Below are positions 9,478-14,487 of a stretch of DNA of 64,000 nucleotides, one piece after another. The first letter of the stretch is position 1; each line of letters opens with the position of its first letter. The stretch is from positions 1,736,001 through 1,800,000 of the forward strand of contig NZ_CP008887.1 in NCBI RefSeq assembly GCF_000769655.1, given 5' to 3'. This DNA is from Thermococcus eurythermalis (GTDB taxonomy: Archaea > Methanobacteriota_B > Thermococci > Thermococcales > Thermococcaceae). Made by a program: the position numbers and the translations under genes. The notes beneath the pieces were generated by a model. The model was given only the letters and a program-made list of their open reading frames with translations. It did not search any database and had not been told where the DNA came from.

Positions 9478-9993
9478 ATGCCAATAACAACGAAGACAGG
9501 TGATAAAGGTTTAACAGGTCTCTTCACAGGCGACCGCGTGGCGAAGTATTCACCAGTAATGGAAGCCAACGGCACCATAGACGAGCTCGACAGCTTTCTG
9601 GGGGAGGCTAAGCACTACGTCCCGGAAGAGATGACGGAAATCCTTGAGAAAATCCAGGTTCAGCTCTACGACCTGATGGCCGAGCTCGCGAGCAGGGGGA
9701 AGTACGCCAAGGTCGGAGACGAGGAAGTCCGCTGGCTTGAAGAGCTAATCCACAGGTATGAGGAGGAAGTCCAACTCCGCGCCTTCGTCCTGCCCGGCTC
9801 AACGATAGCGAGTGCGAAGCTCGACGTCTGCAGAGCTATAACAAGGAGGGCCGAGAGGAGAGTGGCTAAACTCGTCCTCGACTACGGTTTCGGCCAGAAC
9901 GCCCTAATATACCTCAACAGGCTCAGCGACCTGCTCTTCATAATGGCGAGGGCGATAGAGAAGAGGGAAGGAAAGCTGAAGGAGGTCAAGTGA
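9478..9993 (+). CDS. PduO-type cob(I)yrinic acid a,c-diamide adenosyltransferase
   Basis: It transfers the adenosyl group of ATP to cob(I)alamin, making coenzyme B12. The 171-residue protein shows all PduO-type blocks: N-terminal TKTGDKGLTGLFTGDRV with the ATP-binding K/R residues, ANGTIDELDSFLGEAK, the central-helix CRAITRRAERRV, and C-terminal YLNRLSDLLFIMAR. Full length for the family. GTGGGGGTGTTGGT just upstream supplies the ribosome site. Its last 8 nt overlap the convergent MFS gene. Thermococcales generally salvage corrinoids, so a salvage role is likely (inference). Confidence 0.94.
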   Translation: MPITTKTGDKGLTGLFTGDRVAKYSPVMEANGTIDELDSFLGEAKHYVPEEMTEILEKIQVQLYDLMAELASRGKYAKVGDEEVRWLEELIHRYEEEVQLRAFVLPGSTIASAKLDVCRAITRRAERRVAKLVLDYGFGQNALIYLNRLSDLLFIMARAIEKREGKLKEVK

Positions 9994-11245
9994 GCGTCTC
10001 CTTTCCTTCTTTCAGTCTTTCTTTAGCCCGAACGTCCATCAGCAGAATTTCGCGGTATCTCAGCCAGTAATAGAGGGCGACGGCCCCCATTCCAATCCAG
10101 AGGCCGAGGGTAACGAGCCACGCGGGGTAAACGTTCAGGAGCGGGCCGACGAGGACGAGGCCGAGGGGCGTCGCTATGTTCGTCAGTATTCCCAAGGCCG
10201 AGAAGACCCTGCCGCGAACCTCGCTCGGAACGGCCCGCTGGATTTTGGAGTCAATTGGAATGCTTATGAAAGCCTCGCTTACTCCCCAAACTACAGAGGT
10301 GGCCGTAAGTACAATGAAAGCTCCCTCCCGTTCAAGCTTTGAAAGAGGGGATATCAACCATATGAACAGAACCATCACGAGGCCGTTGAGGAGCATCGCC
10401 TCGAACAGGAACTTTCCTGCCCCCTTCCCGAACTTCACCGCTATGAGAATGTTCCCAATCAGTGCCCCGCCCATGAAGAAGCTCTCCATGAGGCCGAACT
10501 GGAAGCTCGTGAACTTGAGGACTTCCCTCATTGCGTATGGGAGCAGAACCGCTCCAAAGGGGGCCCCAAAGATGCCCATGAATATCGCGAAGGTCATCAG
10601 CGTCCTCAGGTAATGGTGCCCGAAGATGAAACGGACGCCTTCCTTTATGTCGCTGAAGACCTGACCGATTCCCTCAATTGGCTTTGCCTTCCACTCGTAG
10701 CGGATTAGCATCTCAAAGAGGCCTGAACCGAAGAAGCTGACCGCGTTTATCAGGATTGCAAGCTTTATCCCGCCGATTCCGTAGATTAAACCGCCGAGGG
10801 CCGGTCCAACGAGGCGGGCCAGTATCGTGAAAGAAGACACCGTTGAGTTTGCCTTCTCAAGCTCGTCGGGCTCCACCAAGTCGGGAAACATCGCCCCGGT
10901 TCCGGCAGAGAAGAACGAACCCAAGACCGCCATAACCACCTGAACTGCCAAAAGCTGGTAGATGCCGAGGAAGTTGAAGGCTATGACACCGAAGAGGAGA
11001 ATCCCCCGGATTAGGTCAAATCCAACCATGAGCCACTTTCTATTATACCTGTCGCCGACGACACCTGCGAAGGGCATGACTATGAGGGAGGGAATTATCT
11101 CGGCGAGGATAAAGAGCGTCATCATCGAACCGCTGTGGGTCTTGTCGAGGACATAGAGCGGTAGGGCAACGTCCTGCACCGCCCAGCCGAGCTGGGAAAC
11201 GAACCTTCCAACGGCAAAGAGCCAGAAGTTCCTGTTGAGGCTCAC
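9986..11245 (-). CDS. MFS transporter (12-helix drug/efflux type)
   Basis: A 419-residue integral membrane transporter of the major facilitator superfamily. It starts MSLNRNFWLFAVGRFVSQLG and has an MFS signature loop between helices 2 and 3 (FAGVVGDRYNRKWLM). About twelve hydrophobic segments are evident, with a central cytoplasmic loop near residues 185-205 and a second signature-like RAVPSEVRGRVFSALG. This layout is that of the MFS_3/enterobactin-exporter-like group, usually an efflux pump. The substrate cannot be read from the sequence. It is convergent with the adenosyltransferase gene, overlapping by 8 nt. No regulator gene is adjacent. Confidence 0.87.
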   Translation of the reverse strand: MSLNRNFWLFAVGRFVSQLGWAVQDVALPLYVLDKTHSGSMMTLFILAEIIPSLIVMPFAGVVGDRYNRKWLMVGFDLIRGILLFGVIAFNFLGIYQLLAVQVVMAVLGSFFSAGTGAMFPDLVEPDELEKANSTVSSFTILARLVGPALGGLIYGIGGIKLAILINAVSFFGSGLFEMLIRYEWKAKPIEGIGQVFSDIKEGVRFIFGHHYLRTLMTFAIFMGIFGAPFGAVLLPYAMREVLKFTSFQFGLMESFFMGGALIGNILIAVKFGKGAGKFLFEAMLLNGLVMVLFIWLISPLSKLEREGAFIVLTATSVVWGVSEAFISIPIDSKIQRAVPSEVRGRVFSALGILTNIATPLGLVLVGPLLNVYPAWLVTLGLWIGMGAVALYYWLRYREILLMDVRAKERLKEGKETLT

Positions 11246-11309
11246 GGCACCACCTCCTCTGTCCCCATTTTTGCATAATTGTTGAATTAAGTGATTAGGA
11301 ATTAAAGAA

Positions 11310-11963
11310 TCAAATCAGCTCGACCCTCACGTCGCCGTTCACAGTGCTGGCCCGGACCTCGAACTCACCCGTCCCTATAACGGGGTCGTCCGGGTCTATG
11401 CCGACCAGTTTGACGTCTCCATTGACCCTTTTGCTGACTATCCTGGCATCGCAGAACTCGGTCAGGCGAAGCACGATGTCACCGTTGACGCAGCTTACCT
11501 CAACGTCCCCCTCGAGCTCCTCGATGGTAAGTTCGATTTCACCGTTCACGGTGGAGGCCTTCAGGGGGCCAGCAACCGTTAGGTGAGCCCTTATCTCGCC
11601 GTTCACCGTGCTGAGCTTTTCGGCCTCGCAGTCCTTCAGGCCTATCTCGCCGTTAACCGTCGTGACTTCCTCAAAGCGCACGCCCCTGGCCTTAAGCTCG
11701 CCGTTCACGTTCTTCGCGCTCACCGGGACGCTCCGCGGAACCTTCACCTCTATCTCAGCCCAACCGTTCTCCCTGAGCAGGTCCAGGAACTTTTTCTTCG
11801 GCTCCTCCCCGATGACGAGCCTGCTTCCCTTCTGCTCGACTTCAACGTTTACCTCGCCGTGGACGGTGTAATCCACCTCGACGTAGTCATTTTCCCAGCC
11901 TTCAATCTCGATCCGGCCGTTGGTGGCCTTTATGTCGACTTCCTGGACGTTTTCAAATATCAT
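11310..11963 (-). CDS. DUF4097-family beta-repeat protein
   Basis: A 217-residue protein made largely of short beta repeats carrying the VNGE/VNGD motif (KNVNGELKARG, TVNGEIGLKD, TVNGEIRAHL, TVNGEIELTI, CVNGDIVLRL, RVNGDVKLVG, TVNGDVRVEL), typical of the DUF4097 right-handed beta-helix-like fold. No signal peptide or membrane helix is present, so it is probably cytoplasmic or held by a membrane partner. It is the last gene of an ArsR-led operon; its ATG overlaps the stop of a 45-codon gene as ATGA, so its translation should be coupled to that gene. The upstream membrane protein also ends in beta-rich repeats, suggesting the two act together. Function unknown. Confidence 0.8.
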   Translation of the reverse strand: MIFENVQEVDIKATNGRIEIEGWENDYVEVDYTVHGEVNVEVEQKGSRLVIGEEPKKKFLDLLRENGWAEIEVKVPRSVPVSAKNVNGELKARGVRFEEVTTVNGEIGLKDCEAEKLSTVNGEIRAHLTVAGPLKASTVNGEIELTIEELEGDVEVSCVNGDIVLRLTEFCDARIVSKRVNGDVKLVGIDPDDPVIGTGEFEVRASTVNGDVRVELI

Positions 11964-12097
11964 ATCAAACCCTCCAGCGGATGAAATTCAAAATCGAAAA
12001 GGGGCCTCTCGTGCCCCGTCTTCTTTTCGCAACACTCCTCCCGTCCATCGGCGATTGTGATGGTATCGGGAGCCTTTGAAATTGCCGCGGTCTCCAT
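11960..12097 (-). CDS. 45-residue protein with Cys-Cys pair, coupled to the DUF4097 gene
   Basis: I do not recognise this small protein. The ORF starts with ATG at 12097 after a GGGGTGAGTGGG ribosome site that overlaps the stop codon of the upstream membrane-protein gene, and it ends in an ATGA overlap with the DUF4097 start, so it fills the whole gap between the two genes. The translation is soluble and acidic, begins METAAISKAP, has adjacent cysteines at residues 22-23 inside REECCEKK, and ends FEFHPLEGLI. Strong ribosome site and overlap on both sides argue it is translated. It could bind a metal or act as a leader that sets translation of the DUF4097 gene; neither is shown. Confidence 0.6.
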   Translation of the reverse strand: METAAISKAPDTITIADGREECCEKKTGHERPLFDFEFHPLEGLI

Positions 12098-12102
12098 CCC
12101 AC

Positions 12103-13395
12103 TCACCCCAGGTATGATGTCAGCTCGTCGAGGAGCTCCTTCACGCGCCTGTTGAGCAGGGTCCTGTCTATGCCAAGTCCCTCTATCAGCCCGGCGCTCT
12201 GCTCCTCCACTATCTCCTTCGCCTTCCTGACCACCAGCCTATAGGCGTCGCCGTTCTCTATGGTGTACGCTTTGCCCCCCGTCCTTATGCGCACCGTGCC
12301 GTCTCTGGCGGAGATTACGACGTCCTCGATGCGTATCTTGGCCCTTCCCCTGCCGACGCTGACCGAGACGTCGCCCGAGCGCAGGGAAACGGTTTCGCCC
12401 AAGCTGAGGCTCTCGTTTCCGCTCCGGTAGATCACCCTCTCACCGTCGACCTCGATGGAGTACTCGTCGGTCTGAACCTTCAGCCTCTCGCCTACCTTGG
12501 TGAGCTGGAAGCCGTTGCGGAGCTCCCTGATGGTCAGCATATCCTTGAACCCCCCAACGATTCCGTCATGGATGTGTATCGGGCCTATCCTGACCCTCTC
12601 CCCGTGCGGTGTATCTACGACCTCAATGAAAGGCAGCTTCACGTACTCGAAGTCCTCGCCCTCGTAGACCTTGATTATGCCCAAATCCACTACGCTCTCG
12701 CCCTTCGTCTTTCTGTAGAGCCTGTCCGGGTTAATCAAGCGATTTGCAGTTTCAACGAAGCCCTCGTCAGCATTTGTTTTCTTCCCAACCTTCAGCTCTC
12801 CCCACACCGCGACTGGACTTGAGAGGGCTTTCCTTATCTTTCCGAGCGGAGTCTCCACCTCAACTTCAACGCTTCCATCTATCACCCAGCCAACCCGCTT
12901 CCCGCCGAACTTTACGGGGTACGCTCTTCCCTCTCCCCTTAGCCCCACGTCGCCGAAGTCGGCCCCATTGAACTCGTAGGCCTTCTTCTCGACCTTCCAC
13001 TGAAAGTGCCTTTCTTCGCCCTTGCCGATGAGCAGTCCCGCTATGGCGAGGACAACGGAGTATGCGAAGGCCCTTCCAGCTAGGTCGTGGAGGTCTTCGG
13101 GCATGCCGAGCCAGCCGCCGAAGTACAGGAACAGGGCAGTCCAAAACGCACCCTTTGCCAGTGCGAAGATTATTCCGGTCAGCGTTACGCCGAACCACTT
13201 CCCCACGCTCAGCAGTTCAAAGGCAAAGATTAGAGCTATTATCGCGTAGACAATGTAGTGGTTGTACTCTTCAAGGCCGAGGTGGCCTTTAAAGAGCCAG
13301 ACGATCAGGAGCACTGCGGTGAGCTTTTTGAGGTACTCAGCTATCTTAAACCTCGGGCTTTCGTAGCCCGTAATGCTGTAGTTCCAAACACTCAT
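12103..13395 (-). CDS. membrane protein with four or five N-terminal helices and cytoplasmic beta-rich domain
   Basis: This 430-residue protein is not assigned to a known family. Residues about 20-150 hold four or five hydrophobic helices (LTAVLLIVWLF, YIVYAIIALIFAF, LTGIIFALAKGAFWTALFLYFGG, AYSVVLAIAGLLIG). The remainder is a long soluble part with beta-repeat character (GNESLSLGETVSLRSGDVSV, RDGTVRIRTGGKAY) ending in a charged helix. Its ATG overlaps the stop of the ArsR-type regulator gene by 4 nt (ATGA), and its stop overlaps the ribosome site of the 45-codon gene, so all four genes 13805-11310 form one tight operon. The architecture suggests an envelope sensor or scaffold whose expression is set by the first gene (inference). 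Confidence 0.72.
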   Translation of the reverse strand: MSVWNYSITGYESPRFKIAEYLKKLTAVLLIVWLFKGHLGLEEYNHYIVYAIIALIFAFELLSVGKWFGVTLTGIIFALAKGAFWTALFLYFGGWLGMPEDLHDLAGRAFAYSVVLAIAGLLIGKGEERHFQWKVEKKAYEFNGADFGDVGLRGEGRAYPVKFGGKRVGWVIDGSVEVEVETPLGKIRKALSSPVAVWGELKVGKKTNADEGFVETANRLINPDRLYRKTKGESVVDLGIIKVYEGEDFEYVKLPFIEVVDTPHGERVRIGPIHIHDGIVGGFKDMLTIRELRNGFQLTKVGERLKVQTDEYSIEVDGERVIYRSGNESLSLGETVSLRSGDVSVSVGRGRAKIRIEDVVISARDGTVRIRTGGKAYTIENGDAYRLVVRKAKEIVEEQSAGLIEGLGIDRTLLNRRVKELLDELTSYLG

Positions 13396-13805
13396 TCTTC
13401 CACCTCCTCAAGGGCGGTAATTATCTCCAGCAGGCGCAAAAACAAACGGCCGTTGGGCGAGATTTCATACCTCTCGCCTTTCCTGATCATCCCCGTTTTC
13501 AGGAGGAGCTTCAGGTGGTGCGAAACGGTCGGGCTCTCCACGCCCAGCGCTTCCTTTATCTCTTTGAAGCTCATCGGCCCCTCGGAGAGCATCTTGAGCA
13601 CCCTAATCCTGTCGGGGTTGGCGAGGGCCTTGAGGGTTTTCGCAGCTCTCTCCTCGTCTATCTCGGGCAGGCTTCCGCCTTCGAGCTTTCTCCTGAGCCG
13701 GGCCTTTATCGAGAGCATGACCTCATCAACGGGGTCAATGTTTTCCTCCAGCACCTCCAGCCTCTTCTTCAGCTCTTCGAGCTGAACCTTCAGGTCGTTC
13801 TCCAT
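13392..13805 (-). CDS. ArsR-family winged-helix transcriptional regulator
   Basis: A 137-residue DNA-binding protein with an N-terminal charged coiled-coil region (residues 1-45, with heptad-like leucines) followed by a winged helix: LANPDRIRVLKMLSEGPMSF, KEIKEALGVESPTVSHHL as the recognition helix, and LLKTGMIRKGERYEISPNGRL as the wing. The HxxK-type ending of the recognition helix is typical of ArsR-like archaeal regulators. There are no metal-binding cysteines, so the signal is unknown. A 31-bp palindrome (13817-13847) sits between its TATA box and start codon, implying autorepression. First gene of a four-gene operon. Confidence 0.88.
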   Translation of the reverse strand: MENDLKVQLEELKKRLEVLEENIDPVDEVMLSIKARLRRKLEGGSLPEIDEERAAKTLKALANPDRIRVLKMLSEGPMSFKEIKEALGVESPTVSHHLKLLLKTGMIRKGERYEISPNGRLFLRLLEIITALEEVEE

Positions 13806-13973: not shown

Positions 13974-14453
13974 TCACTCAAGCCGAGATTCTATAGTCTT
14001 AATCTCCTCATCAAGCAGGTTCTTGATGTGCTTGAGGAGCTCAAGGTACTCCCTCAGCGTTTCCTTGTCAATCTTCCGCGCCCGGCCAGTCTCTTCAATC
14101 TTCTTCTTAAGCCTCTCGTGGTAGCTTATTGCAGTGTAGAAGGTCCGGAGAGCCAGGTCGTTTGACGTCCTCAGGTACTCCCAGCCCTTGTCGGTCAGCC
14201 GGTACTTAACGCGCCTTACCTTTCCGCGGTACTCCTCATGGGGCTCCAGAAGGCCTTCTTCGACCATCTTGTTGAGTATTGTGTACAGGTTGCTGTGGCT
14301 CGGCTTCCAGAGACCGATTGCAAGCTTTTCAAGCTCTTTTAGGATTTCATAGCCGTGGGTTTCCCCTTTGAGGCCGACGATGACCAGTATGATGTTCTTC
14401 AGGGGAACCGTAAAGAGCCCCTTGATTATCTTCCGCTCCATGTCTTCTCCCAT
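13974..14453 (-). CDS. PadR-family transcriptional regulator
   Basis: A 159-residue PadR-like repressor. The winged helix includes IILVIVGLKGETHGYEILKELEK, the recognition region KPSHSNLYTILNKMVEEGLLE and the wing region KVRRVKYRLTDKGWEYL; the C-terminal helices (residues about 95-159) would form the dimerisation domain, as in PadR-s2-type proteins. ATG 14453 follows a GGTGGT ribosome site (an in-frame GTG at 14462 is part of that site). The gene is divergent from a giant RND/MMPL transporter, a common PadR arrangement in which an efflux pump is derepressed by its substrate. The intergenic region carries three CATGT boxes at exact 15-bp spacing. Confidence 0.87.
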   Translation of the reverse strand: MGEDMERKIIKGLFTVPLKNIILVIVGLKGETHGYEILKELEKLAIGLWKPSHSNLYTILNKMVEEGLLEPHEEYRGKVRRVKYRLTDKGWEYLRTSNDLALRTFYTAISYHERLKKKIEETGRARKIDKETLREYLELLKHIKNLLDEEIKTIESRLE

Positions 14454-14487
14454 TGCGACCACCGTAATTGAAGGTTAAACCACAATC

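Follow-up and report, generated by a model that had tools for sequence, protein, structure and literature searches.

Toastrack proteins, their multi-TM partners, and wHTH regulators make up sub-membrane signaling modules that occur sporadically in archaea, as set out in a comparative account of the PSP response (PMC11237479). In the PspA-free Lia/toastrack operons outlined there, a winged-helix regulator lies beside a DUF4097 protein and its multi-TM partner. In an archaeon, translational coupling requires overlaps or very short gaps between genes, and the coupled pairs are enriched for complex subunits (PMC10666635). Short coupled upstream open reading frames (ORFs) that end in an NTGA overlap are described for prokaryotes in excerpts of PMC12548453 and PMC10666635.

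Here, we report a 45-codon gene lying between a membrane-protein gene and a DUF4097 gene in a 64,000-nucleotide stretch of Thermococcus DNA (the whole stretch analyzed is called the window). Judged from comparisons among related genomes, the frame is a real protein-coding gene under purifying selection on its amino acids. The surrounding module has components of the same three kinds, and by analogy with the Lia/toastrack operons an envelope-stress role is plausible. It differs from those operons, as far as the available part of their description extends (PMC11237479), in having an ArsR-like regulator and a membrane protein for which 48 members scanned gave no LiaI/LiaF TM model; that part makes no mention of a small coupled gene. 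Like the short coupled ORFs in the excerpts cited above (PMC12548453, PMC10666635), the small gene ends in an NTGA overlap; unlike them, it has conserved amino acids, and relatives that lack it couple the flanking genes directly.

Organization of the operon and its proteins

The same locus was compared in 67 Thermococcaceae genomes (that of the window and 66 others). The membrane gene was found in 70 of the 94 genomes searched, and three were excluded before counts were made: G042, in which the DUF4097 gene lies elsewhere, and G016 and G074, in which contig ends cut the locus.

Table 1. Coordinates of the operon, its small gene, and nearby features in the window
Feature	Position	Strand	Remarks
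ArsR-like winged-helix regulator, 137 aa	13392..13805	-	4-nt overlap with the membrane gene start
Membrane protein, 430 aa	12103..13395	-	Four predicted N-terminal helices, then a beta-rich domain
GGGGTGA	12103..12109	-	Last sense bases and stop codon of the membrane gene; doubles as ribosome site for the next frame
Small gene, 45 codons plus stop	11960..12097	-	Core GHERPLFDF C-terminal; N-terminal half variable
Possible RNA hairpin, GGGGC-ACGAGAG-GCCCC followed by T-rich TTTTCGATTTT	12001..12017	-	Inside the coding core
GHERPLFDF codons, residues 28 to 36	11990..12016	-	F34 and D35 invariant in 28/28 copies
GGAGGG	11970..11975	-	Within the last small-gene codons; DUF4097 ribosome site
DUF4097 (toastrack) protein, 217 aa	11310..11963	-	LiaG/LiaX-like
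PadR-like regulator	13974..14462	-	
MMPL/RND-like membrane protein, 1358 aa	14558..18634	+	Divergent from the PadR-like regulator; adjoins the operon
Cobalamin adenosyltransferase	9478..9993	+	PduO N-terminal type

Translation of positions 12097 to 11960 (minus strand) gives METAAISKAPDTITIADGREECCEKKTGHERPLFDFEFHPLEGLI. The ATG at 12097 stands 5 nt past the TGA of the membrane gene (whose end at 12103 reads ...CTGGGGTGA), and the TGA of the small gene shares an ATGA with the DUF4097 start. A sequence-only reading of the window had listed the 45-codon frame with its coordinates, the 5-nt gap, the ATGA overlap, and a Cys-Cys pair, all of which are present exactly as claimed, and the ArsR/membrane/sORF/DUF4097 order that it proposed for the operon is kept across loci: at 66 of 67, an ArsR-like gene comes before the membrane gene, and the two mostly overlap by 4 nt. 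It had also credited the small gene with an ideal ribosome site. That site is present, but it is formed by the last bases of the upstream gene and persists at loci that have no small gene: 59 of 67 loci keep GGGGTGA or GGGTGA, among them most of those without the small gene, where the DUF4097 start mostly lies 4 to 6 nt past the membrane stop, after the same GGGGTGA or GGGTGA. The site thus serves whichever frame follows and is weak evidence for the small gene.

The DUF4097 protein passes Pfam PF13349 (42.2 bits; gathering score, 22.9). Its best NCBIfam relatives are LiaX and LiaG, both below cut-off, and it is not a LiaG equivalog (NF049997, 36.5 bits against a cut-off of 285). The regulator belongs by sequence to the ArsR/SmtB family, since it passes NCBIfam NF033788 (60.2 bits against 55). 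For the membrane protein, 48 members scanned gave no LiaI/LiaF TM Pfam model at E up to 0.1, and Foldseek returned nothing for its fold at E up to 0.001. The best VIA-align match (Z, 8.6) was to TCP10/G-box beta sheets, which we read as a common arrangement only, and no PDB fold matches convincingly; the toastrack fold was absent among the matches listed. The small protein has no relative in Pfam, NCBIfam, or PDB sequences, and its AlphaFold model is without secondary structure (pLDDT, 64). In a literature search, the motif letters gave no match, no paper combined three of the terms Thermococcus, DUF4097, LiaF, and ArsR, and no small-ORF terms were found in the main text, reference list aside, of the T. 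kodakarensis transcriptome paper. A mobile or repeated DNA element was considered for the core and rejected, its pattern occurring once exactly in the genome with two looser matches, the level of the reversed control.

Conservation and selection on the small gene

Between the membrane and DUF4097 genes, the small frame is intact in 28 of 67 syntenic loci, reduced to remains in 8, and absent from 31; the sequence-only reading had named a frame unconserved at homologous sites as what would refute the gene, and this was not the outcome. The remains comprise three frameshifts, three scars, one diverged copy, and one fusion (scar, fusion, and divergence being by-eye assignments). Start codons in the 28 intact copies are ATG (25) or GTG (3), and in one genome a 1-nt insertion precedes the small gene, a GTG start is used, and the frame is kept. 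The version in G011 has 30 codons. Thirteen copies are ungapped over 45 codons, and all of these come from loci without an extra DUF4097 paralogue; read in this frame they contain no stop, whereas the other two frames have 19 and 29. Their pooled pN/pS is 0.403 (dN/dS, approximately 0.33), and the value is 0.417 for codons 2 to 26, which lie outside the RNA-hairpin core. For the whole gene, 0.395 was reached by none of 200 equal-rate neutral simulations and by none of 200 with block rates, and the lowest simulated values for codons 2 to 26 were 0.42 and 0.49. The membrane gene has a dN/dS of 0.17 and DUF4097 one of 0.16, so the small gene evolves about twice as fast as its neighbors.

GHERPLFDF occurs in most of the 28 copies (L33, F36, E30, and G28 each in at least 90%), and the LFDF residues are kept in 27, 28, 28, and 26 copies, respectively. 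Their codons vary almost only synonymously (CTT/CTC, TTC/TTT, GAT/GAC, and TTT/TTC), and synonymous change is low across codons 27 to 45.

Distribution, losses, and the second DUF4097 paralogue

A profile built from the 28 copies, which therefore match by construction, was searched against 94 family genomes and matched 30 at E up to 0.005, in every case at the locus described here; in two of these (G064 and G041) the small gene is broken. No copy away from the locus was found in the 94 genomes at E below 0.005, and a wider search of 115 phylum genomes added none to these 30, which belong to 2 of the 12 genera. The gene was seen in one genus, with a single decayed copy in a sister genus, and is not a general feature of the Thermococcales. 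An off-locus match in G022 (L012) lies in the frame antisense to a gene that we take to be spermidine synthase, so we read it as chance.

Gain or loss of the small gene takes 12 changes on the membrane-protein tree (without L111, which is cut) and 14 on the DUF4097 tree (without rows with short proteins), of which at least 11 and at least 10 are forced, so the gene has a long history in the genus and has been lost many times, or else recombination has moved it. Because 31 of 67 loci are without it and 8 hold remains only, the module works without the small gene, which on this comparative evidence is dispensable, present early in the genus and lost repeatedly. It adds a conserved small-protein family missing from the Pfam and NCBIfam libraries, and sister species that carry the same operon with or without it offer a natural experiment on the role of tiny coupled archaeal genes; apart from that, it is a modest accessory gene restricted to one lineage.

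A second DUF4097 paralogue is present in 17 of 67 loci, all 17 with the small gene or its remains, and is missing from all 31 gene-less loci, a pattern that would arise if paralogue and small gene usually disappeared together; the loci share ancestry, so the P value for this association is only indicative. The paralogue is diverged and lies downstream of the small gene and upstream of the usual DUF4097 gene (L113, L115, L117, L120, L124, L125, L130, and others). At one locus (L093, G068), the small-gene remnant, which follows the membrane stop, and the start of the extra paralogue seem to form one in-frame fusion, and at another (L142, G059) the usual DUF4097 gene is broken into two pieces with one in-frame TGA.

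Proposed role and competing explanations

Our preferred reading, to which we give slightly less than an even chance, is a lineage-specific microprotein made by coupled translation, an accessory peptide that docks by PLFDF on a protein of the ArsR/membrane/toastrack module. From the anatomy of the locus, we infer that ribosomes ending the membrane gene would reinitiate 5 nt on at the small gene and that the ATGA overlap would then pass them to the DUF4097 gene, so that the peptide would be made alongside both partners. As coupling requires an overlap or a very short gap, translation of the small frame would keep DUF4097 coupled across a 139-nt gap. The N-terminal half of the peptide changes fast and is probably disordered; close to the C terminus is a short linear motif, (G)HERPLFDF, of which PLFDF would be the likely contact on one module protein (which one is a guess), tuning its assembly or signaling.

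Although the frame is short and has no family in Pfam or NCBIfam, its conservation and the neutral simulations contradict a chance open frame, an explanation that we find scarcely credible. A more serious contender, though itself improbable, is a ribosome relay or cis-regulator, in which translating the frame would open both the hairpin and the ribosome site of the next gene, the peptide itself doing little. The core can form GGGGC/GCCCC with a T-rich tail, and in most copies the hairpin beats synonymous shuffles in stability; in 7 of 28, however, more than 0.3 of the shuffles are as stable or more so. When three central offsets in 16 representatives were set against 210 control windows drawn from neighboring genes, they were beaten by 0 to 3 windows on one score and by 5 on the other; core stability relative to such shuffles is thus near the top by both, yet other windows, such as the DUF4097 start, are equally extreme. 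When 17 copies are folded as an alignment, CCCCUUU pairs with GGAGGG further downstream instead, which would suit a relay, but none of the 6 pairs covaries. A search of positions 11200 to 13500 against Rfam for a known RNA gave no match up to E 1. A cis-acting RNA hairpin in the core is possible on these folds, which are suggestive only. The scarcity of synonymous changes in codons 27 to 45 would suit a relay; however, LFDF is kept through synonymous changes, the N-terminal half is constrained at the protein level, and gene-less loci couple directly, mostly across 4 to 6 nt. We think it unlikelier still that this is a dying gene, left over from a longer ancestor that was linked to the second DUF4097 paralogue, with its frame kept mainly since coupling needs it open. 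The forced changes on the membrane-protein tree with their repeated losses, the frameshifts, scars, and fusion among the remains, and the split of paralogues between loci with the gene or its remains (17/17) and gene-less loci (0/31) all fit such decay, but purifying selection on amino acids is seen in the 13 copies lacking the paralogue and the motif is retained throughout the genus.

Two further explanations concern what the peptide might bind, and we hold both to be very unlikely. The bolder has LFDF docking the microprotein on a cytosolic hub such as PCNA, which would link the membrane/toastrack module to replication. It draws on a recurrent weak off-locus match of the profile (E, 0.02 to 0.8) to the end of a frame of about 500 aa, which in the genome of the window is the RFC large subunit ending KKGKQATLFDFLGKK, a tail that is the RFC PIP box; the LFDF core would then be a degenerate PIP box of the same kind. 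Against the canonical Qxx[LMIV]xx[aromatic][aromatic], however, ERPLFDFE offers only the L and one F, with E for Q and E for the second aromatic, so that two of four anchors are lacking; LFDF-coding strings number 44 in the genome against 64 in the reversed control; and archaeal PIP boxes are located at the very C terminus. With two anchors missing and LFDF common in the genome, PCNA is kept only as the boldest reading. The other, less probable again, is the original proposal of a metal-binding peptide in a metal-sensing operon. The copy in the window has the Cys-Cys pair, and the regulator clears the ArsR/SmtB metalloregulator cut-off (60.2 against 55 bits), but only 5 of 28 copies have the pair; 16 contain any Cys, and 12 contain none. 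The membrane protein has no Cys, and the regulator has two His and no Cys, which excludes a thiol metal site; metal sensing was thus not borne out. Haloferax zinc-finger micro-proteins, as presented in part of PMC10716476, are alike in having fewer than 70 residues, but the small gene, unlike them, is without paired C(P)XCG motifs, and its Cys are not conserved.

Against the preferred reading of an accessory docking peptide stand the faster evolution of the small gene, the loci that do without it, and the membrane gene of the window. The membrane gene looks mosaic in the window and in G024: its first two-thirds are 58 to 74% identical to those of the G013 gene, whereas identity is mostly 88 to 100% over the membrane-gene end, the small gene, and DUF4097. 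Nearly identical small genes beside differing membrane alleles argue against tight coevolution with the first two-thirds of the membrane protein.
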